A DNA stretch of 64,000 nt from Onthophagus taurus (lineage: Eukaryota; Arthropoda; Insecta; Coleoptera; Scarabaeidae): contig NC_091971.1 of NCBI RefSeq assembly GCF_036711975.1, forward strand, positions 10,857,501 through 10,921,500. Direction: 5' to 3'. Both the position numbers and the translations under genes were made by a program. Under the pieces are notes generated by a model. The model ran no database searches, was not told the origin of the DNA, and saw only the letters and a program-made list of their open reading frames with translations. Shown here piece after piece: positions 13,357-27,382 of the stretch (positions within the stretch are counted from its first letter, which is position 1; every line of letters begins with the position of its first letter).

Positions 13357-14172
13357 ATGAAAATCGTGCTTTTTGCTTGCTGCATCATTTTAGGCATAAA
13401 CGCCTATGAATTCGACGATGCCCTTTATAGTAAGTTATCGCTTAAAGTATATCTTTATTTTCCATTTTTTTTGGTAACTAATTCCATTTTATTTTTACAG
13501 ATCAATACCTTGCAAAGGATTTCGAATCTCTGATTGATGATCAAGCATTAACTCACAGAATACGAAGACAATCTGAAGATCCGAGATGTCGTAAACCGCA
13601 AGGTCCACCTGTATGTTGCGGAAAAGAAGATTTTCTCTCAATTGACAACGATTTGCGCGATCTCAAAAAACAATGCTACAAAGAAGTTACTGGACAAGAA
13701 ACGTTCCATGGGAAACCATTCGATCCTTTCAATTGTGATGATGTCGAAAAACTTAAAAAAGATCTAATTGTAAGTTTTAAACCTTTAAACTATGAGTACT
13801 AAATTCATTTTCTTATATTTGTAGTGTGTTAAACAATGTGTGGGTAAAAAGAAGGGTTGCTTAGATGCGCAAGGAAATCTTGTGGAAGATGTTGCTAGGA
13901 AATTCATGACCGAACATACCACGATGGAATGGTTGAAACCAAAACTCAATGATATGATGACAAAATGCTTCGCAGAAGCTAAAAAGGCAACGGAAAATAT
14001 GAATAAATCTGTTGATGATGCCTGCAATCCGGCTCTTACCAAATTCGAGCACTGTATGTTTAGGGAAACTCAATTCGCTTGTCCAGCAGATCAAATTCAA
14101 GATCAAAGAACATGCGCAATCGTTCGGCAATTTGCTAAACACTCAACTTTTCTCCCAGTTGTTGGTCATTAA
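13357..14172 (+). CDS. OBP-A: Plus-C-type odorant-binding-like secreted protein
   Basis: Three exons: 13357-13429, 13501-13769, 13825-14172, GT-AG introns in phase 1 and phase 0; 229 residues. The signal peptide is about residues 1-16 (MKIVLFACCIILGINA). Next comes an acidic segment starting YEFDDALYN and ending in HRIRR, an R-x-R-R site for a furin-type protease. The cysteine domain follows: one Cys, a CC pair, KQCYKEV, FNCDD, CVKQC, then KCFAEA, ACNPA, HCMFR, ACPAD and TCAIV. The Pro after a late Cys and the CC pair fit Plus-C odorant-binding proteins, which bind small hydrophobic ligands outside cells. It has 13 cysteines, one more than most neighbours (GC-LDA). First of six tandem genes. 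OBP family membership is well supported; the ligand and tissue are unknown. Confidence 0.88.
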
Positions 14173-14202
14173 ATATTTTTAAAAATGTATCGAAAATTGT
14201 TT

Positions 14203-14208
14203 AATAAA
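14203..14208 (+). terminator. Polyadenylation signal of OBP-A
   Basis: AATAAA 31 bases after the stop codon. Confidence 0.75.
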
Positions 14209-14439
14209 ATATATATTTTTAAAAGGATTGGTGTATAGATGTTTTTCTCAAAAATTGTTAACAATTGTTGAAAGATTCAGTATCAGTAATCAAGCAATGA
14301 ATTAAAGGGGATAAAATAGGTGTTACTCCATCTATAGAGATATACACCTTTTTATAAGCCAGAAATAATAATAATTATTATGAAAATCCAATGAATAAAT
14401 ATGGAAAATGTTCTAAAATTCTTGAGACTGAAGAATGTC

Positions 14440-14965
14440 GCAATGTTTTAAGACTTGAAATCGGTCCACATTAATTTTGCATTACGGCGAACAAATAGCA
14501 ACCTAACTGTGTCTCTTGAAAGATGCTCCATTCCTCAATCAGCATCAACAAAATATGTTGATCTCCATTTTGATGGCAGTGGAAGCATCATGTTAGATAG
14601 AAAGCTAAGCAGAGTAGATTCGAAAGTAGGCAAAATACTGGTTAGTCGGTACATGATTCCAACTTGATTTGCAATTAAAGAGACTAGTTTATCAGTTCAT
14701 GATTAATCCTATCTGGACTTACGGGAATCAGATCTGGGATTGAAAAAAGTGATCTAATCAATTGATCATCTCAATACAAATTCTTTGACTGATTACCAAT
14801 GCTTATTGTAATATAACCAATTAAAAACTACATGATGATCAAATAGGTCTACGAAGTAATTCAAGAGTCCGAAGCGAAGCATGAAAAAAGACTGCTGCGA
14901 AATCCAACGTTGAAGCCACTTAGTTCCTGTGGCTCAGTTACCCAGGAACTCAAAAGATTGAGGTT
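14440..14965 (+). mobile_element. Degenerate jockey-like LINE fragment
   Basis: Frames with stops and shifts read FALRRTNSNLTV, SIPQSASTKYVDLHFD (about 14470-14570), NPIWTYGNQIWD (about 14705-14740) and TLKPLSSC (about 14905). Together they match the order of the region behind the reverse transcriptase core in jockey-type LINEs. The 5' part is missing. It lies between OBP-A and OBP-B. Confidence 0.7.
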
Positions 14966-15119
14966 ACAGGATATTATTAATTAAAAGATTGTTGTATAGC
15001 TGATGTATTATGAAAGAGAAGGTAGCCTGAATACAGCTTTCCGTTGTATAGGGGCGAAGAATGAAGGATTTACGTTTATGAAATCGATGCCGCTTTCGGT
15101 TGAGACACTGCAATAGTGG

Positions 15120-15680
15120 CGTACTGCAAGAGTGGTGTACTTTTCGTGTTTTCATGCGATGGCTGGGTACGGTGTTCTGGCCTGGGGGTCGGCTACTGGA
15201 TTAAAGAGGGTTTTCCGTTTGCAAAAGCGCTGTATTCGAGCGTTAGACGGCCTAACTGCCGTCGTAAGTTGTAAATCATCTTTTAAAAAACACAAGATAC
15301 TAACAGTGCCATCTAACTACATATTAACGTGTCTAAATTACGTTCATAATAACAAAAGCGAATTTAGAACAAACTCTCAATTACATTTCTACGACACATG
15401 TTATAAATCGTTTTTTGAATTGCCATCACATAGACTCAAATTAACGCAGCAACATGTCAAAGATCTAACTATTAAGAAGTTTCACATATATGTAAAAAGC
15501 CTATTACTCGTAAAATGTTTCTATAATATAGATGAATATTTAAATTGTAATGAATTGGACACATTTAATTAGTGCTAGTACTGTTTTTTGTGTTAGATGT
15601 AAACCTTTTTTGTAACACTAATTGTTTTTTGTTTTGACGTTTTTGCTCGACTTTGTATCAGCAGATAAATAAAAAATATG
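15120..15680 (+). mobile_element. Second LINE 3' fragment (jockey-like) with 3' UTR
   Basis: An uninterrupted frame of about 146 codons (15132-15572) reads AGYGVLAWGSA, VFRLQKRCIRALDGL, SCKSSFKKHKILTVPSNYIL, the usual end of the reverse-transcriptase polyprotein of jockey-like LINEs. It is followed by a T-rich 3' UTR with AATAAA near 15668. It starts abruptly, so it is 5'-truncated, as LINE insertions commonly are. It differs in sequence from the fragment just upstream, so it is a separate insertion. Confidence 0.75.
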
Positions 15681-17570
15681 GATATGAATGTGTGTTGCCT
15701 AAATTTGAATTGAAGCTTAACCCGGTAAAACTGAATATTTTCAGTTGATTAAGCTCGGTTATATCTTTGATCTCACATCTATATAAAATTGGACAATACA
15801 TATTATACTGTCTCGGCCGCAAACAACCCTCAACTTTATTGGGCGAAATCTTAGGCACTGAAATACGTGTTGCCTAACTGTGTATGCATTGCAGTGGGAT
15901 CAATTGTGGGGATTCTTCATGTTTCATTATACATCAAAAACGACTAATAGCATATTATATCTCGCCGAACGTTAGCTAGATAGTAAACATAATACAAATA
16001 TGACCACTCGAATGAGTTGGTAGAGTGTAGATTGCCTTAAAAAGTAAGTAAAACGTTTCATAATAAACATGTAATCGTATTGTTGAGTTCTATCTAACAC
16101 TGAGTTGATTTTTGGTTGCAAATTTGCCCACATGCTAAATAATGGTGTGTTATTAATGGAATCTCTGGCAACTACAACACATTTTTAAATATTGAAGGCT
16201 GTGTATCGAAGGATACGTCCAAATTAGTGTTAGTATACCGGTTAATCTAATATTGGGAGTAAGCATCGGTTTGAAATAGAGCCCTGTTATGGTGGTACGA
16301 AAGCCTTGTTTACTGACGAGGGTATTGCAACGATTCAAACTAGACGGGCATCGTGATATTTGATGTTTACACAACTTCGTCTGTGGGTAATAATGTTCCC
16401 ATTGTTTCAACGAGATCCACCACTCAACCAATTATGAAAAAAACGGCTAGTTGAGTTCTGGGATTACTGACTGCAAACATTCATTGAGATGTTTCATCAT
16501 AAACATCCATAATAGGTCAATAAAAAGATTAAGCGTACTGCGACGTTTCAATTATAAGTGAGCTCGACGATTATTTCTTCCGCCCATTAAAAATTAAATA
16601 AAATCACAAATTGTTTTTTCCAGAAATGAGCAAATCACATTACAACCAAATACATTCATTAAATCGATGCGTTTCATAATCGATAACTCAACACAAAGAG
16701 TTTTCGTCAATTACATAAAGAGCAATTTTTGTTACAATTTATGAAACTGCCATTATTTTCGGTCACTGTATATTTATGGATTTTATTACTATTCTAATGA
16801 GAATGATTAATTGATGATGCATTAGCGGAATAATTCTTCATTGTTTTAACATTTATCACAATGCTACTGGAAATTTCCAATATCATTGCATAAATCAGTA
16901 TTTCAAATACAGTTGTAGGTAAATATTCATGAACGAGTTCACACAATCAGTTTCTAAACAAAGGCGCGCACTCACACCTTCAAATCAAACCATTACATAA
17001 AGATTTATAAAAAGAAAGAACAAAATAAAAACTAGAAATAAACTCGACAAAAGAAAGAAAGTTTTGTTTAATAGAAACAAGACTGATTCATCTTGATTAA
17101 ACAATAAGTAAATATTTTTAACAATATAACCACACGTTTCGTTGTTAACACGAAATACATTAATCATAGGTGTAGTTCCCCTTAACGTTTTGTTATGCTG
17201 TACTAATGATATTTAGACATCACAAACATTAAAACTCAAACAAAGACAATTCAAAGAAATAATTTTGTTATTGAAAAACACATATTTAATTATCTAGAAA
17301 ATGAAACGCACTTCCCTTTATTATATTTGATTGTTTATTTTGGTTATTAAAACGCTATTATATAGATCAAAGCTAATTACAGATGATGACCAACGAAGGT
17401 CAAAGCGATTTTTTACAATTGCCACCGCAAAGATAAATCTTGAACATCTTATGTAACCAAAAACCGATTAAAATCATATCAATTTTAACGATTTAACACC
17501 AACTCTAAAAAAAAGTAACCAGAACATAGCGTGCTACCTCCCATTAAAAAAACTGTGGAGACAAGGAATG
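15681..17570. other. No gene recognised
   Basis: AT-rich. Frames on the minus strand at 15658-15858 and 16153-16431 have no recognisable family and no gene context. Confidence 0.45.
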
Positions 17571-17577
17571 CAGCGGA

Positions 17578-17614
17578 TATAAATAGAGAAGTCTTCGCGA
17601 AACCGGTCGTCAGT
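17578..17614 (+). promoter_or_regulatory. Core promoter of OBP-B
   Basis: TATAAATA at 17578-17585 and TCAGT at 17610-17614, with the same 34-base spacing and the same AGAAGTCTTCG between as OBP-A, so the promoter was duplicated with the gene. Confidence 0.8.
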
Positions 17615-17635
17615 AACAAGAACAACTTTGTGAGG

Positions 17636-18456
17636 ATGAAAACTTTACTTCTTGTTTCTTATATCATTTTGGCTGTAAATGCCTATCAATTTGATGATGC
17701 GATTTACAGTAAGTTATTTTATTTTAAAACAATCTTATTTCTTATCTTTTTCTTTTTGTTTAGATCAATACCTTTCAAAAGATTTTGAATCTTTGGCTGA
17801 TGATGAAGAAATAACAATTTTAAATCACCGAGCACGCAGAGAAACCGAAGACCCGAAATGTCATCATAAACATCATCATCACCATCACTTATGTTGTGGG
17901 GCTGAAGACCTTGAAGCTCTTCATAACGAATTACGTGATATCAAAAAAGAATGTTTCAAAGAAGTTACTGGGAAAGAAACGTTCCATGGTAAACCATTCG
18001 ATCCTTTTAATTGCGATGATATTGAACAACGCAAAAAAGAAATGATTGTAAGTTAATTGTTATTTTAATAACGATTCTTTTTATTAATTAATTTATTAAT
18101 TTTTGTAGTGTGTTAAACAATGCGTTGGTAAAAAGAAGAACGCCGTTGATGAAGAGGGAAATCTTAAGGAAGATGTTATTAAAAAATATGTTACGGAGCA
18201 TACTTCAATGGAATGGTTAAAACCGAAACTCGATGATATGTTAACTAAATGTTTTGCAGAAGCTAAAGAAGCTGGAGAAAAAACGGATAAATCTGATAAA
18301 AATGCTTGTAATCCAGCCCACATCAAATTCCAACACTGTATGTTTAGAGAAACTCAACTCGCTTGTCCAGAAGATAAAATTGAGGATCCAAAAACTTGCG
18401 AAATTGTTCGGCAATTTGCTAAACATTCAAGTTTCTTCCCACATCCTCCACATTAA
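17636..18456 (+). CDS. OBP-B: Plus-C-type odorant-binding-like protein with His-rich insert
   Basis: Exons 17636-17708, 17764-18047, 18109-18456; 234 residues. The signal peptide is about residues 1-16 (MKTLLLVSYIILAVNA), followed by YQFDDAIYN, an acidic stretch and the basic site HRARR, then the cysteine domain with 12 Cys. It is closest to OBP-A in exon layout and sequence (for example TFHGKPFDPFNCDD is shared). Unusual: between the first Cys and the CC pair it carries HHKHHHHHH (about 17862-17888), absent from the others; such a tract could bind metal ions or respond to pH. It lacks the third intron present in OBP-C, -D and -F. Secreted ligand carrier by family; the ligand is unknown. Confidence 0.88.
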
Positions 18457-18521
18457 ATGTTTTAATTAAAAAAAAAGTTGCTGCTTAATGTTTGATAAAT
18501 ACGTATGTTTTTAATGCTGCT

Positions 18522-18527
18522 AATAAA
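18522..18527 (+). terminator. Polyadenylation signal of OBP-B
   Basis: AATAAA 66 bases after the stop. Confidence 0.7.
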
Positions 18528-18772
18528 AGTATTGTAACTTCACACGCACTTGGGTTTTTTATTCAATATCATTTATTTAAATTTGTTTATTGTGTGCGAC
18601 ATCCGTAAATTACAGAAAAATAAATTATATACCTAAATAATATTGTGATAGAAATACAAGGTTAAAATAATTTTCAAATTCTATTATACAATTAAATCTA
18701 TTGTGATTTAAAACTTATTAAATACGTCGACACAACCATTTTTCATAACAAAAATTAAAAATACACCTCGCG

Positions 18773-21700
18773 ATGGTTATGTTAATAATAGTTTTGAGTG
18801 TATTTCATACTATATTTGCTTATAATTTCAACGATGCTCTTTACAGTAAGTTTCGTATTCTTATTAAAAACATAATTGTATCGATTTTATTTAAAAAATT
18901 AATAACAGATCAGATTCTTGCCGAAGATTTCGAAACATTTTCTGAAGATTTAATTCATTTAGAAAGAATTAGGAGAGATGTTAAAAATATGAGTTGCTAC
19001 AGACCATCAAAACTTCCATATGCTTGTTGTGGTGGAAAAGAATTCCAAGAAAAACGAAAGGAATTTGTACCAATTGAAAGAAAATGTTATCAAGAAGTAA
19101 TGACAGGGAGGAAGAATGGTACATTTGATCCATTCAGTTGTGAGGATCTTCAAAAACGAAAAAATGATATTGTTTGTGTTAAACAATGTGTGGCACAACA
19201 AACAGGATGGGTATATATATTTTTCTTGTATTATGTATTATATATAATATATAGACACATAGGTCCGATAACCCATACAAATCATATTATAAAGCTGGGT
19301 TGGAAATCTTTATTATTATTGCTGCCGGGATGAGAGGAGCGGCCCCTCTCGTTACCCCGACCTATAAGATCTATTGTAACAAAGGTTGAACTCCAAAGGT
19401 TTAGGGTAAATGTAGGTCCTTAATAAACCTTAGTATTGCTCTGAGGTCTTGAACCTACCTGTCGGTAGGTGTCAAGAGAGTTTTACCGAAAATATTGTGT
19501 CTTAGACGGCCTCTGGTAACGCAATTGCACAGTATATGTTCAGCTGTTTCTGACTCATCGTTGCTAAGTAGACAAGTTTGATCCTCAGCTTGTCCAATGT
19601 GGAAGAGGTGGCATTTTAGGGGCGAATGGAGTAACCTGAGAGCGTTCTTAGATTTCCTCTGCTGAGGCATAAAACCTCTTTGGTTTTGTTTTGCGACGGA
19701 GTTATCAACTCTTGGCTTGTCTGTGACCTGGAAGTTCTTTCCAGCGTAAGGCTACCTTTGAGACCTTTGTTTTAAGTGGCTTTTTTGTAGTCCACAGCCA
19801 GGTTGGGATCCAATGAAGGGTGTGTTCGCTGCTTCTTTGGCCCGCTTGTCCGCCTTCTCATTGCCTTCAATGTTGCTGTGACCTGGAAGCCACCATAGGG
19901 TAACATCATTGCCCCTAGCGAGTTCTCTCAGGTTGCTGGTACAGTCTCTGATCAGTGCGGAGTCACACGTGTAGGCCTCAATTGCCTTTAAAGCGGCCCG
20001 ACTGTCTGTGAAAATGTTGATGTATGCACCTTTCTGTCCATTCTGTAGGTTCAAAGCGGTACAGAATTTTATAGCAATAACTTCTGCTTGGAAAACTGTT
20101 ATGTCCGAGCTGAGTGACAGTTTAATGCTGCTGTTCGGTCCATTGATGCCCATACCTACTCCGGATCTAACTGTCTTTGAAGCATGGGTGTACCACGCTC
20201 GGGCTCCTCTTTTTAGACCCTTCGCCCAATCATCCCTGCTTCTAAATATGACCTTATACTGCTGATTGAAACTGTATTCTGTCGGTATAAGGTCCGTTTT
20301 AATTTCAATCAGGTGATTAGACATAGGTCCTTGACGATTTCGAGGTGTCCTGTGAGGTTGCCCTGCATCAACTTGAGTGAACAAACTATTTTCAGTGATA
20401 AGGCACTTGAAGCCTCCTTTTGTATATATAAATGAAGCGGTGTGAGACTGAGTAGGGCTTCTAAAGCAGCCGTCGGACAGGATTTCATTGCACCAGTTAT
20501 GTTAAAACATGCTAACCGCTGGATTTGTGCCAGTTGTTGTTGTGCTGTCTTATGTTTTGTTTTTAGCCACCAAACCAATGAGGCGTAGGCGATCATGAGT
20601 CTGATTATTGCTACGTTGGCCCAATGAGCCATTCGTGGTTTGAGACCCCAGTTCCTTCCTAGGAGCCTGCGGCAGATCTGGTTTGCCATGATGGCCTTTT
20701 TCCTCACCTTATCTAAATGTCAGTTCCATGTTAGTTTACTGTCTAGTATTACCCTTAGGTATTTAACTACTGTTTTGAGGTTGATAGTTCTGCTTTCAAT
20801 GGAGGGTGCTTTTATTTGTAGCTTCCTTCTCCGAGTGAAAGGGACTATTTCGATTTTATTTGGATTGATGCTGAGCCCATTGCTTCTACACCAAGTACTG
20901 GTGAGTAGTAGGGCTTTCTGCATTAGTTGAGTTATGATCGTATCATATTTACCTCGGATTGTGATTACCAGGTCATCAGCATATCCCTGAATCTTGAATC
21001 CGTTTTTTGTGAAAGTGCTAGTCAAAGCATGGGGAGCAGTAATTGTTGATTTTGCTTTTTGGTAAACATGTTTGCTAGGGTGGAGTGGATTAGTGATACT
21101 TTGGAAACCTTTCTTGAACCTGAAAGCATTGTTTCTGTTATGGAGTACTTGACCATACAATCAAAAAAGTTTTTTTGATATACCGATTGTGTTGGGAGCA
21201 ATTCAATCAGTTGCGGTGTTAATATGAGATTTGTTCTATAACACTTATCATCAAATTTATAATTAAATCGTTATTTTCTTAATTGATTAATCAGTAACAC
21301 TAAACTTAATAACAATAAACATTAAAACTTTCTTCCTAATAAAAAGAGGAAACTTCAGCTTTATTATAATAATCACAGTAATCAGCACATGAAATTGCCT
21401 CCTAAACACCTCGTTCGTGTTCATAAACGTATTCACACTTGCTTATTATAACTTTTCTAACAGCTAACACCCACGAAACTTATCGTGTCAAAAGTTTTTA
21501 AAGTTTCTTTCCTGCAACTGTCACATATTTTAGACAAATCTAAATGCAACTCATTTAAATCATTAAAAAAGTTTAATTAGTACATGATTCATGTTGCTGT
21601 CCCTCTTTACTCATTCAGTTTAGGTCTTACTTATAAGATAATATTTGTGATAAGGTTTTCATCGATTTTTTGATATTACATAAACAAACACGATTATAAA

Positions 21701-22032
21701 TAACATACATTTTTTTTCAGGTTGATTCAAAAGGTGATTTAAATGAAACCAATGTAAAAAAGTTTGTAACAGAACAAAACAACTTAGAATGGTTAAATCC
21801 AAAATTGGATGATTTAATAACGAAATGTTTACGTGAATCAACGGAAATAATTAAAACCACTGAAAGTCCAATTAAAAATTCTCCTTGCAAATCGACCGCA
21901 TTAAATTTTTCGCATTGTATGTTCAGAGAAACACAGGCTGCTTGTCCAAGTGATCTAATTGAAAATCCCGAGAAATGTACCAAATTTTTGAATGCTTTAA
22001 AAACTAACTCTTCGTATTATAAAATATTTTAG
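18773..22032 (+). CDS. OBP-C: odorant-binding-like protein split by a LINE-bearing intron
   Basis: Exons 18773-18845, 18909-19210, 21721-22032; 228 residues, all phases consistent. The signal peptide is about residues 1-16 (MVMLIIVLSVFHTIFA), then YNFNDALYN, basic site ERIRR, and 12 Cys (SCYRP, ACC, KCYQE, FSCED, CVKQC, KCLRE, PCKST, HCMFR, ACPSD, KCTKF). I chose 18773 rather than the Met two codons later because it gives the same 73-base first exon as OBP-A and OBP-B. The second intron of the family is absent here: KNDIVCVKQC is continuous in one exon. The last intron (19211-21720, phase 0, at the position also used in OBP-D and OBP-F) is 2.5 kb because it contains an antisense LINE. All exons are open, so the gene may still work if the long intron is spliced. 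Confidence 0.8.
19311..21165 (-). mobile_element. 5'-truncated I-clade-like LINE inside the OBP-C intron
   Basis: Read on the minus strand: reverse transcriptase end with IQGYADDLVITIRG (about 20965-21000), a C-terminal RT part (20309-20707), an RNase H domain (19752-20384; FQAEVIAIKFC, FTDSRAALKAIE, WLPGHSNIEGNEKAD) and a Cys/His knuckle CLLSNDESETAEHILCNC (about 19500-19570). The end carries CGGCAGCAA followed by TAA repeats. An RNase H domain with a (TAA)n tail fits the I clade. Frameshifts separate the blocks and one RNase H catalytic Asp appears as His (WYTHASK), so this copy is dead. Confidence 0.8.
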
Positions 22033-22062
22033 GTTGCTTAATTTTAAAACTGTATTGATCAT

Positions 22063-22068
22063 AATAAA
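22063..22068 (+). terminator. Polyadenylation signal of OBP-C
   Basis: AATAAA 31 bases after the stop codon. Confidence 0.7.
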
Positions 22069-22178
22069 AAATATTACCTACATATTAAAGAATGTTATCA
22101 ATTACGCATTTTTTCTTTGTTAATCCTTAAGTTATTAATCAACAGAAATTCTTAAAACATTTATTCATTCTGGGCAAG

Positions 22179-22187
22179 TATAAAAAG
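22179..22187 (+). promoter_or_regulatory. TATA box of OBP-D
   Basis: TATAAAAAG 56 bases before the OBP-D start codon. No TCAGT initiator as clear as in OBP-A, OBP-B and OBP-E. Confidence 0.6.
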
Positions 22188-22234
22188 GAAATGATTCAAT
22201 TAAAATTTAACAAAATTTTGGTAAATATCCAAGG

Positions 22235-22987
22235 ATGAAGTTGTTTCAATTAATAATTTTTGTTATGTTTAGTTGGTTGATTTTATCTTCGAAAATACGT
22301 AGAAGTGAGTAAAAACAATTTCCAGATATTCCTTAATACAATAATATTTTAGATCATGGTATTAAAAGAATTTCAAATGGTACTAAATCAATTCGCAATA
22401 AACGTGATATAACTTGTATTGATGTTCATTCTTGTTGTTCCGTCGACTTAGAGAATAGAACATCATTGGATGTTATTACTAATCAATGTATGAATGAGAT
22501 AATTTTGGGGAAAACAAAGGCAAAATAAAAAATTTAATATTTCTAATTATTGTATTAATAATTTACTTTTTTAGTGTTTTATGGATTGTGTTGCAGAAAA
22601 ATTAGAATTTGTATGTGCTAAAATGTATTGGTTATGTAACAATATTAATTTTATTATTTTTAGTATTCCCCAAAAGGAAATATTATTCTTACGAATTTAG
22701 AAAATTACATGTACGAGAAAATAAGGATTCAGTATTCATGGGTTAAAGAGGAGATGCGGTCAAAAATTATCAATAAATGTTTAGACACAACAAAACTTTA
22801 CTCCGAATTAGTCGAATCAACAAAAACGGGGTGTAACAATCTTTTAACTCCGCTAGGAGCTTGTGTTTTTAGGGAATCTCAACTCGATTGCCAAGATATT
22901 TTTGTTAAGGATCTAAGCTCTTGCATTCAACTCTTAAGTTACATGTCAACCCATAAAAGATTACCTCCCATAAATAAACGGTGTTGA
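22235..22987 (+). CDS. OBP-D: divergent odorant-binding-like protein with a probable GC-AG intron
   Basis: Proposed exons 22235-22304, 22353-22519, 22575-22610, 22664-22987; 198 residues. No GT donor keeps the frame at the second intron; the frame would otherwise hit TAA at 22526. An AG|GCAA site at 22520 (GC-AG intron) restores phase 0 exactly into CFMDCVAEK, so I infer a GC donor. The alternative is a pseudogene. The signal peptide is weaker (MKLFQLIIFVMFSWLILSS); the YxFxD segment of the other copies is missing but the basic site IRNKR remains. The Cys of the family's FNC motif is lost while an extra Cys ends the protein (NKRC), keeping 12. The domain otherwise shows SCC, QCMNE, KCLDT, CVFRESQLDC and SCIQL. 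The most diverged member of the cluster. Confidence 0.7.
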
Positions 22988-23367
22988 ATTAAAAAATGTA
23001 ATTAATTATTGATGCAAATATAGCATTTGAGAAGCATATTTTTTTAAATTTTATTCTCTTTCGTATTACCTTTTACCTGGGTTGTTACATCATTAAGTTC
23101 GAGTTCGTACAGAAAATTAATCACGCAAAAACGTAACTGTAGCATCATAATAAAAAATTTGAGAATCCATCATTGTCTCTCTGCAAAATCTCCGTAACGA
23201 AAAAATGGCAAGCAAAAATCCGTGATGATGAATAGACATGCCAATCATTTTCTCTACATGGGAACAAGCCCGTTAAGTTGAACTCCTAACGCTCTTTCAA
23301 TGTCATACCTTTTGACGAAGAGATAATTACATCGCGTTTTTTGGTCCTCGCAAAAAATTCACAACAG

Positions 23368-23403
23368 TATATAAACTCCACCACAAATCTCCAAGAAGTC
23401 AGT
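23368..23403 (+). promoter_or_regulatory. Core promoter of OBP-E
   Basis: TATATAAA at 23368-23375 and TCAGT at 23399-23403, 33 bases apart, 37 bases before the start codon. Confidence 0.75.
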
Positions 23404-23439
23404 GTACTCAACTTAAAAGTATCAGAAGTAACATTTAAG

Positions 23440-24230
23440 ATGGGACTCTTTAATATTTTCGCTTTTATTTTCGTTATTGCAACAACCCAAGCTTATAATT
23501 TTGAGGACTCTATTTACAGTAAGTTCTTTTATATTCAAATTCTTTTTATATAATAATAATATATAATATTTTAGATCACATTCTCATAAACGAATTGGAT
23601 CAACTCCAATGGGATAGCAACAAATTGTTCGACCCAAGAAGTAAACGCGAAACAGATTCTAAATGCAAAAGCGATTTATTTAGGAGTTGTTGCGAAGAAG
23701 ATTATTTTAGAGAGCTTTACGAAGAAGATAAAGCTTACAAAAAAGAATGTTATAGAGAATTAAAAGGTAAAGATTTAGAAGATTCTTTAATCGATTTATT
23801 AAAATGCAACAAAAATGAAGAAATTAAGAACGATATTGGAGTAAGTAATTTCATTCTAACTTAATTATATTAATAATGAGTTAATTTTAATTAGTGTCTA
23901 GCCGAATGCGTAGCTAGAAAGAGGGGATTAATCGATGATGAAGGGAATCTTAAAGAAGCTGAAGCCAAGAAAAGTTTTGAAGAAAAATGTGCTAAAATCG
24001 AATGGTTCGCTCCAAAGGCAAATGAGATTTTCGCGAAATGCTACTCTGCATCCGTTGAAGCAGGAAAAGCTTCAAGAGAAAAGGGTCAATGTAATCTGGC
24101 TTCCATCAAATACGGACACTGCCTTTGGAAATCAATTCAAGCCTCATGTCCAGCTGATCGCGTCACAGACGAAGCTAAGTGCAAGAAAATTAGGGAAAAT
24201 ATTGATTCGTTAGAGGAATTTACATCGTAA
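23440..24230 (+). CDS. OBP-E: Plus-C-type odorant-binding-like protein
   Basis: Exons 23440-23518, 23575-23840, 23895-24230; 226 residues, intron phases 1 and 0. The signal peptide is about residues 1-18 (MGLFNIFAFIFVIATTQA), then YNFEDSIYN, an acidic segment containing DQLQWDSNK, basic site PRSKR, and the Cys domain: SKCK, SCCEED, ECYRELKGK, LKCNKN, CLAEC, KCYSAS, QCNLAS, HCLWK, SCPAD, KCKKI. An extra Cys (EEKCAKIEW) makes 13. LQWD and the HC-[IL]-W-K motif are shared with OBP-F, so these two form a subgroup apart from OBP-A, -B and -C (HCMFR). The third intron is absent. Short intergenic distances on both sides indicate recent tandem duplication. Confidence 0.87.
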
Positions 24231-24286
24231 AGAGGCGCTTTATCTCAAATTTTCTAGTTATTTTCTATTTAACATATTTAAAACTC

Positions 24287-24292
24287 AATAAA
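24287..24292 (+). terminator. Polyadenylation signal of OBP-E
   Basis: AATAAA 57 bases after the stop codon. Confidence 0.65.
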
Positions 24293-24571
24293 CTACTTAA
24301 AAACTTACAAACCTTAATTTTATTCTTAATAAGATTTAAATTACTTACGTTAACTTTAAAAACAAATGATCTAAAACTAAATACCTACTTTCTTAAAATC
24401 AATATTTAAACTTAAATAATAGCAACGTTAAGAAGAATAACGTTAATTGAAGATATTTATTTAACCGTTACTTATCGTTACCGATGCTTGACCCAGCAAA
24501 AGCGACCACTTAAATAACTGCGCAGTTCCAAATTGGTCAGTTTAACGAAGATCTTCAACGAGATCACGAAG

Positions 24572-25548
24572 ATGAGTTTTTCAACCTTTTCCTCATTATT
24601 TTTTTTAATCTGCGCTGTCGGTGCTTATGATTTTGAAGATACCGTTTATAGTAAAATCACATCAATTTAATAAAAATTAACCTAACAAAATTATTTTTAG
24701 ATCAAATCTTAGCCGAAGAATTAACCGACTTACAATGGGATAATCACTTAATTAATCCGAGAACAAAACGCGATGAAGAAGCTGTTATTAAAGAAGATAA
24801 ATGTAGAAAAAAACATTTTCGAAGTTGTTGCGACGAAGAATACTTTAGTTCCTTAAGGGAAGATGAAAAACCAATGCGGAAGGAATGTTATAGGGAGATA
24901 ACCGGGAAAGAATTAGCCGAAGTGTTTCTTGATCCCTTTAAATGCGATAGAGGAGATAAACATAAAAAAGATATAGCGGTAAGTTTTTGTTTACAACTTA
25001 CATCAAGGAAGTAATCCAAAACTTATTTTTAGTGCGTAGCTCAATGTGTGGGGAGAAAGAAAGGATTGGTAAGTAGCCTTGCCTCAAAGTCAAGGTCAAT
25101 AACCATATTATTCAATCTCTGACATCCCGTTATGCGTCGTTTTGCGCAATGTTTATCCTGTTATTATCACATCACAGCAATTACCGTTTCAGGAACGGTA
25201 ACGAGGAAATTAAAAATTTTAATTTGTTGCTAATTTCAGATTGACGACGATGGTAATGTAAACGAACCAACCGCAAGAAAAATAATTAAAGAGAAGATGT
25301 CCAAGGTTGATTGGTTAAAACCAAAATCCGAAGCCATCTTCAATAAGTGTTACACCGCAGCGAAAGAAGCAGCTATAAAACAACGGGATAAGAACAGCTG
25401 TAATCCTGCGGCGTCGAAACTGGGTCATTGTATATGGAAAGAAATCCAATTAAATTGTCCAGCAGATAGGATTATCGATGACAAGAAATGTACAAAGATA
25501 AGGGAGGATATCAAACGAAATCAAAACCAAACACACGATGAGGATTAA
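24572..25548 (+). CDS. OBP-F: Plus-C-type odorant-binding-like protein, four exons
   Basis: Exons 24572-24650, 24701-24978, 25033-25068, 25240-25548; 233 residues. The signal peptide is about residues 1-18 (ends CAVGA), then YDFEDTVYN, an acidic segment with TDLQWDNH, basic site PRTKR, and 12 Cys (DKCRKK, SCCDEE, ECYREI, FKCDRG, CVAQC, KCYTAA, SCNPA, HCIWK, NCPAD, KCTKI). It keeps all three introns, including a 36-base exon 3 between introns two and three, so it shows the probable ancestral layout. A TCAGT initiator-like site lies at 24537-24541 with only a weak TATA-like sequence upstream. Last gene of the array. A secreted carrier of small hydrophobic molecules by family; the ligand is unknown. 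Confidence 0.87.
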
Positions 25549-26649: not shown

Positions 26650-27298
26650 TTCGATTATTAATTAAAGTATCCTCTTCTTAGTTCAAAAAGCCATTTTGAA
26701 AAATCGCTTTTAATTTTTGAGAAATAAATTTTTGAAATAATCTACAATTTTTTCGAATTTTACAATTTTCGAAGATTAAGTTTTAAATATTCGTATAAAA
26801 TCCATTTCTTGGAATATGAGTATGAAAACCTCCCAAAGTGTTAACAAGAGTATCCTCTTTCCAATGAATCAACCCGTTTTGACAAATAACTTTTAGTTTT
26901 TAAGAAAACAATATTTAAAATTTTGATAAAATTTTCGATGTTGCAATTTTCATCGATAATTTTCAAAATTCGCTATAAAATTAATTTCTTGAAGGATCCT
27001 TGTGGAAATATCACCAATTATTAATTAAAGTATCCTCTTTTTAATGCAACAAGCCGTTTTGAAAAATCACTTTTAGTTTTTGAGAAAAAAATTTTTGAAA
27101 TGATCGACAATTTTTTCAAATTTTGCAATTTTCGCCAATTAAGTTTTAAAAATTCGTATAATATCCATTTCTTGGAATATGAGTATGAAAATTTCCCAAA
27201 ATGTTAATAAGAGCGTCCTCTTTCCAATGAACCAACCCGTTTTCAAAAATAGCTTTTAGTTTTTGAAAAAATAATATTTGAAGTTTTGATAAAACTTT
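26650..27298 (-). repeat. Dimer repeat array, about two 363-bp units, reversed
   Basis: Reverse complement of the array at 4797-6543, with matching half-unit landmarks (AAGTATCCTCTT at 26667 and 27029; the half-B GTCCTCTTTCCAATG landmark at about 27215, with a diverged half-B copy, ATCCTCTTTCC, at about 26850). Confidence 0.85.
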
Positions 27299-27382
27299 GA
27301 TTAAAGCAACAGTTTTTGATTGGATTAACAAATTTTCTACAAACGTGTTTTTCTTAAAAACTATTGCTTTGATCAAAGTTTT
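27291..27382. repeat. Small inverted-repeat element, 27-bp arms
   Basis: The arm at 27291-27317 (AAAACTTTGATTAAAGCAAC...) matches the reverse complement of 27356-27382 at 25 of 27 positions around a 38-base loop. It abuts the end of the dimer array. Confidence 0.65.

Follow-up and report, generated by a model that had tools for sequence, protein, structure and literature searches.

Introduction

A single Plus-C odorant-binding protein (OBP) gene has been described in Tribolium (PMC4377858), in Chrysomela lapponica and likewise in Harmonia; Dendroctonus and Agrilus have one each, a number called 'similar to other beetles', and more than one Plus-C OBP is on record for Holotrichia (PMC8151400). 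These and all later statements on published work refer to the parts of the papers that were available to us. Here we describe six genes, A to F, of the beetle Onthophagus taurus, which occupy positions 13357-25548 (+) of a 64,000-nucleotide window of contig NC_091971.1, a range whose ends coincide with the start codon (ATG) of gene A and the stop codon of gene F. As judged from their cysteine spacing, they represent the Plus-C OBP, reported as single copy in several beetles and here expanded in tandem, and each of the six products has one basic site, R-x-[KR]-R, between its signal peptide and its first cysteine. We argue that the proteins are probably synthesised in a longer form, which a furin-type convertase would trim at this site.

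Among the closest described systems is the sole C+ OBP in Tribolium castaneum, TcOBP5E, a protein of 241 residues with six additional cysteines (PMC4377858). One of these lies 17-19 residues before C1, compared with 18 intervening residues in gene A, and another lies nine residues after C6, compared with ten intervening in gene A when the proline is counted; the proline after C6 and an expanded N terminus are common to both. The expansion was noted in that work without explanation, and, according to the legend, the N-terminal region was truncated for display in the published alignment. TcOBP5E differs from the present genes in being single copy, as opposed to six copies here, and in not having been assigned to the PBP_GOBP superfamily (PMC4377858), whereas five of our six proteins pass the PF01395 profile.

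Another near relative is HparOBP14, a Plus-C OBP of Holotrichia parallela that has 208 residues and a 17-residue signal peptide (PMC8151400). Its spacing C4a-X9-C5-X8-C6-P-X9-C6a is identical to that of gene A, and its C2-X3-C3-X43-C4 compares with C2-X3-C3-X42-C4. The two differ in C4-X12-C4a, against X18 in gene A, and in the number of cysteines before C1, which is two in HparOBP14 and three here. No propeptide is mentioned in the available part of that report; C1 of HparOBP14, counted from the spacing, stands at 54 after the signal peptide, between the 67 of uncut and the 36 of cut gene A, and is neutral in this respect (PMC8151400).

As for the processing, the nearest precedent is Drosophila Neto, whose prodomain is cut by Fur1 at RXXR, mainly at an R-Q bond nine residues before the first domain (PMC4344203). 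Neto combines a prodomain in the secretory route with RXXR a few residues ahead of the first domain, as the proteins described here would, and the R-Q pair recurs in gene A. However, Neto is not related to them, being a transmembrane protein that serves glutamate receptors as an auxiliary subunit, and its sites were called suboptimal (PMC4344203), whereas those in A-F fit the full consensus.

The basic site

All six genes could be modelled as complete spliced genes of three or four exons on the plus strand, and their products, 198-234 residues long, begin with a hydrophobic signal peptide, the end of which was placed by eye, without a predictor. The preliminary description of this DNA had pointed to a basic R-x-[KR]-R before the first cysteine of every protein, and each string that it quoted was confirmed, namely HRIRR (A), HRARR (B), ERIRR (C), IRNKR (D), PRSKR (E) and PRTKR (F). 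From P1 to the first post-signal cysteine there are 3-10 residues (6, 6, 6, 3, 5 and 10 in A to F, respectively). R-x-x-R occurs exactly once in each of the six proteins and always in the form R-x-[KR]-R; the proprotein-convertase pattern, with this site placed between a signal peptide and a folded domain, is thus found in 6/6.

In the six-way alignment, the P4 and P1 arginines are the only invariant columns from the signal peptide to the first cysteine, and they are also the only two all-arginine columns among the 33 post-signal columns that hold any arginine. P3 varies freely (I, A, I, N, S, T), and the residue at P2 is either R or K. Invariance of P4 and P1 alone, with a free P3, is what would be expected of a convertase site rather than of a patch of charge. 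The arginines are encoded by AGA, CGA and CGC at P4 and by AGA, CGT and CGC at P1, and nine of the 15 gene pairs, those for which the proportion of synonymous differences (pS) was computed, have values of 0.53-0.87 across the mature part. The conservation of the site is therefore not a product of recent copying.

When the stretch from the signal peptide to the cysteine was shuffled with its own composition retained, R-x-[KR]-R appeared with a probability of 0.027 in A, 0.013 in B, 0.009 in C, 0.21 in D, 0.004 in E and 0.003 in F. The site of D taken alone does not rise above chance, because its 25-residue stretch contains nine Lys or Arg residues. Retention of the motif was also simulated by LG evolution along the gene tree, starting from an ancestral motif. 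Without constraint, the probability that it was kept at every tip in five genes was 7.9e-4 on linker branch lengths and 5.4e-4 on the branch lengths of the mature part; for all six genes it was 9.4e-6. As a control within the same genome, 27 other OBP-domain exons were inspected, over the part before C1 that lies within the main exon: R-x-[KR]-R was found in 0/27 and R-x-x-R in 1/27, behind the first cysteine of that exon. These exons came from a search with a classical OBP exon on genome sequence C7, which gave 28 matches with E values up to 0.76; one, L080, was dropped as not OBP-like, which left the 27 exons, accepted on inspection by eye. To the extent that a comparison of paralogues can do so, these results demonstrate purifying selection on the P4 and P1 arginines.

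The leader segment

Right behind the signal peptide, A, B, C, E and F carry the segment Y-x-F-x-D-x-x-Y-N, and its reported occurrence in five of the six proteins was borne out. Intron 1 interrupts it between Y and N, and an element of the YEFDDALY type ends exon 1 in all five genes. Gene D has no YxFxD segment; a basic stretch stands in its place. What the preliminary description lacked is the degree of conservation. Over the five genes, with invariant cysteines and gapped columns excluded, nothing in the secreted protein is as well conserved as the start of the leader: its first 12 residues rank first of 178 post-signal windows; a window of nine residues is joint first of 181 and one of eight residues is 7th of 182. 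Mean pairwise identity is 0.64 over Y17-N25 and 0.38 over Q26-T43 and falls to 0.20 just after the site; the signal peptide scores 0.25 and the mature part, cysteines excluded, 0.36. Because the codons of the leader vary synonymously, its conservation is not sufficiently explained by a need to preserve splicing signals in the DNA.

Five of the six leaders are acidic, with a net charge of -5 to -7 when RxxR is excluded. The hydrophobic moment of the segment at 100 degrees was no higher than that of shuffled segments in 5/5 cases, which gives no sign of an amphipathic helix by this measure. A pro-segment that neutralises the charge of the mature protein was considered and rejected as a general explanation: the leader is acidic in 5/6, yet the net charge of the mature part ranges from -5 to +5.

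Such a leader might itself be the product, an acidic peptide of 27-30 residues starting at YxFxDxxYN that is freed by furin and by removal of the basic residues and then acts alone, the OBP domain being its travelling companion. Its place directly after the signal peptide, with a basic site at its end, would suit a peptide of this kind, as would the fact that the start of the leader exceeds every 12-residue stretch of the OBP domain in conservation. Yet this conservation fades toward the site, and the same pattern is predicted by a folding or inhibitory pro-segment. In addition, the five segments have no match in Pfam and that of A, the sole one tried, has none in the PDB, and the segment has been lost in D. 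We consider an independently acting peptide unlikely, and return to the leader below as part of a precursor.

Family assignment

The preliminary description took these proteins for classical OBPs, a view that we abandon in favour of Plus-C. A classical OBP has six cysteines and, as for Tribolium, a C1-X24-29-C2 spacing; A, B, C, E and F share 12 aligned cysteines, the number expected of a Plus-C OBP, and gene A has C1-X31-C2. The full layout of gene A is C54-X8-C63C64-X18-C83(C1)-X19-C103-X11-C115(C2)-X3-C119(C3)-X42-C162(C4)-X18-C181(C4a)-X9-C191(C5)-X8-C200(C6)-P-X9-C211(C6a), with an additional cysteine at 126. Proline directly follows C6 in the same five proteins (CP; CQ in D), all of which keep the spacing C5-X8-C6-P-X9-C6a that matches HparOBP14. 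Gene D lacks the cysteine between C1 and C2 and has one further cysteine at its C terminus. The Pfam profile PF01395 (PBP_GOBP) recognised five of the six proteins above its 22-bit gathering cut-off, at 26.2-33.1 bits (E values 7.6e-7 for B, 8.7e-7 for C, 8.9e-6 for D, 1.5e-7 for E and 6.7e-8 for F), and A fell just under it at 21.7 bits. A profile built from all six genes matched the PDB entries 3pm2 (E 0.0015) and 4ij7 (E 0.0059) over the C2-C6a half; we take these two mosquito chains to be AgamOBP47 and AgamOBP48, both of the Plus-C class.

Searches with the protein sequences of F and B and with a part of D, run against the 290.8 Mb genome, gave no further Plus-C copy; only the best candidates were scored, so that more distant Plus-C genes may escape them. 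Outside the cluster they returned one match on genome sequence C1 (E 1.5) and one on C7 (E 6), the latter being a classical OBP exon. The exon-1 pattern TAYNNNTTYNNNGAYNNNNTNTAYAGT was found at 16 places in the genome, against 15 for its reversed control. Five of these are the known genes, six lie on C11 and five are single; the two single places that were examined (on C1 and C7) have no in-frame signal peptide by eye. The six matches on C11 (C11:29792641-29796263) follow each other at a spacing of 708-722 bases and apparently belong to a tandem repeat with a long unit.

Discussion

The best reading of R-x-[KR]-R in A-F is that of a selected proprotein-convertase site, which would remove 31-34 post-signal residues (22 in D). 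It is favoured because there is a single site per protein, because its P4 and P1 arginines have been kept through codon changes, because it lies outside the disulfide domain and because Neto provides a precedent for the geometry. The pro-protein interpretation put forward in the preliminary description is upheld to this extent, the cleavage being something that we infer from the same features.

Judged from their sequences, A-F are probably synthesised as precursors that consist of a signal peptide, a pro-segment 31-34 residues long (22 in D) and a disulfide-rich Plus-C domain, and that are trimmed after R-x-[KR]-R. A furin-type proprotein convertase, assumed to be present in the genome, would cut after P1 in the late secretory route and so separate the leader, which is acidic in all but one of the six, from a mature OBP that is 175-184 residues long (157 in D). 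The leader would probably aid folding or, until cleavage, hold the carrier in an inactive or empty state; a role as a free peptide comes second in our preference. In gene A, 98 residues stand between the signal peptide and C2 in the uncut and 67 in the cut form, compared with about 54 in 3pm2 and 4ij7 according to their match ranges, which thus have some 44 residues fewer there than uncut A. The P1' residue is Q in A and acidic in the other five proteins. An acidic P1' should be no obstacle to furin, because furin's own pro-site is R-T-K-R before Asp. A more far-reaching and decidedly tentative idea is that A-F represent a zymogen-like branch of the Plus-C OBPs, in which a leader removed by furin, and constrained above the binding domain, plugs or folds the pocket or is set free as a signalling peptide; if true, one gene would give rise to both a carrier and a peptide.

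Insect OBPs are generally treated as losing their signal peptide only. OBP binding studies, structural models and recombinant proteins usually begin at the signal-peptide cut. If the leader of Plus-C OBPs is removable, ligand binding measured while it is still attached could give a misleading picture, and the activity of the carrier would gain a processing step; the same question is raised for other beetles, with their single-copy Plus-C gene. A search of the available parts of the open-licence PubMed Central literature turned up no account of an insect OBP with a processed propeptide. N-terminal sequencing of other beetle OBPs has dealt with one classical and one Minus-C protein (PMC4992826) and with proteins of 12-14 kDa (PMC7826645), a size class other than that of A-F.

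Several observations weigh against processing at this site or against the family assignment on which the comparison rests. In a second alignment, made with the signal peptides removed, D aligned poorly and the P1 arginine alone was invariant; the invariance of P4 hinges on a good alignment of D, in which the motif is easily recognised by eye. The same gene has no leader, and its site by itself is within chance (P 0.21). The retention simulation assumes the ancestral motif and uses a tree of six tips with inner supports of 55, 59 and 99, and the sample as a whole consists of six paralogues of one genome, which are not independent. Neither are the control exons, 23 of the 27 lying in one cluster, and the first (signal) exons were not included among them. 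The Plus-C class was assigned from cysteine spacing: all six proteins are under the 27-bit cut-off of OBP47_like (PF22651), with 12.1 bits for A, 12.5 for E and 19.3 for F among the scores listed, F staying below it in spite of an E value of 0.001. In the PDB, the profile built from the six genes matched aphid OBP3 chains best (E 9e-6), and with F alone as the query neither 3pm2 nor 4ij7 was found up to E 10.

It could also be supposed that the site is left uncut, the N-terminal arm remaining attached to the secreted protein, where it would form an additional helix or a lid, and R-x-[KR]-R being kept as a basic patch on the surface. TcOBP5E, whose expanded N terminus is described without mention of processing in the available text (PMC4377858), would be in line with this. 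A surface patch does not, however, predict invariant arginines at P4 and P1 around a free P3, nor exactly one RxxR per protein, and we regard an uncut site as improbable. That the motif of a founder gene has simply not yet decayed is most improbable: the six paralogues do share one tandem array, and no further copy emerged from the protein searches (F, B and part of D), but synonymous sites are near saturation and the arginine codons have switched, simulated retention is 8e-4 or less, and the residues right behind the site have diverged to an identity of 0.20. Trimming by a convertase at a selected site thus stays the preferred explanation.

Gene models and further observations

The coordinates of the six genes are collected in Table 1. 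All introns are GT-AG, with the exception of the second donor of D, which would need GC.

Table 1. Plus-C OBP genes of the cluster and parts of gene A (positions in the window; a slash marks the predicted cut)
Feature	Position	Strand	Details
Gene A, Plus-C OBP	13357..14172	+	exons 13357-13429, 13501-13769, 13825-14172; 229 residues
Gene A, protein segments			signal 1-16 (by eye), pro 17-47 (HRIRR/Q), mature 48-229
Gene A, end of exon 1: codons for YEFDDALY with base 1 of the N codon	13405..13429	+
Gene A, exon-2 portion of the pro-segment, last residues HRIRR	13501..13568	+	codon positions
Gene B	17636..18456	+	exons 17636-17708, 17764-18047, 18109-18456; 234 residues; HRARR/E
Gene C	18773..22032	+	exons 18773-18845, 18909-19210, 21721-22032; 228 residues; ERIRR/D; intron 2 of 2.5 kb
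Gene D, divergent	22235..22987	+	exons 22235-22304, 22353-22519 (would need a GC donor), 22575-22610, 22664-22987; 198 residues; IRNKR/D
Gene E	23440..24230	+	exons 23440-23518, 23575-23840, 23895-24230; 226 residues; PRSKR/E
Gene F	24572..25548	+	exons 24572-24650, 24701-24978, 25033-25068, 25240-25548; 233 residues; PRTKR/D

Gene D, besides being without YxFxD, has about 20 residues and one cysteine fewer between C1 and C2 and forms the longest branch of the tree. Its reading frame is open throughout, from which it may be either re-specialised or on its way to becoming a pseudogene. Exon 2 of gene B (17764-18047) encodes a His-rich stretch, CHHKHHHHHHLCC, between the first cysteine and the CC pair, which has no counterpart in the other five genes and might possibly bind metal.

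Intron 2 of gene C contains, in the region 19300-21270, three open frames on the minus strand (19752-20501, 20309-20719 and 20720-21160), which by eye resemble the RNase H and reverse transcriptase portions of a non-LTR (long terminal repeat) retroelement; the splice sites of the gene on either side of this retroelement-like insert are intact. Downstream of the cluster, at 26650-27300, several similar AT-rich stretches appear by eye to be repeated.

Elsewhere in the genome, the 23 control exons mentioned above lie within about 96 kb on C7 (C7:16581179-16677228, loci L053-L079). Many members of this cluster seem to have four cysteines, like the Minus-C cluster on Tribolium chromosome 7 (PMC4377858). 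Locus L075, on C7 near 1.206 Mb, has an open frame of 238 residues that, judged by eye, seems to contain two successive OBP-like domains.

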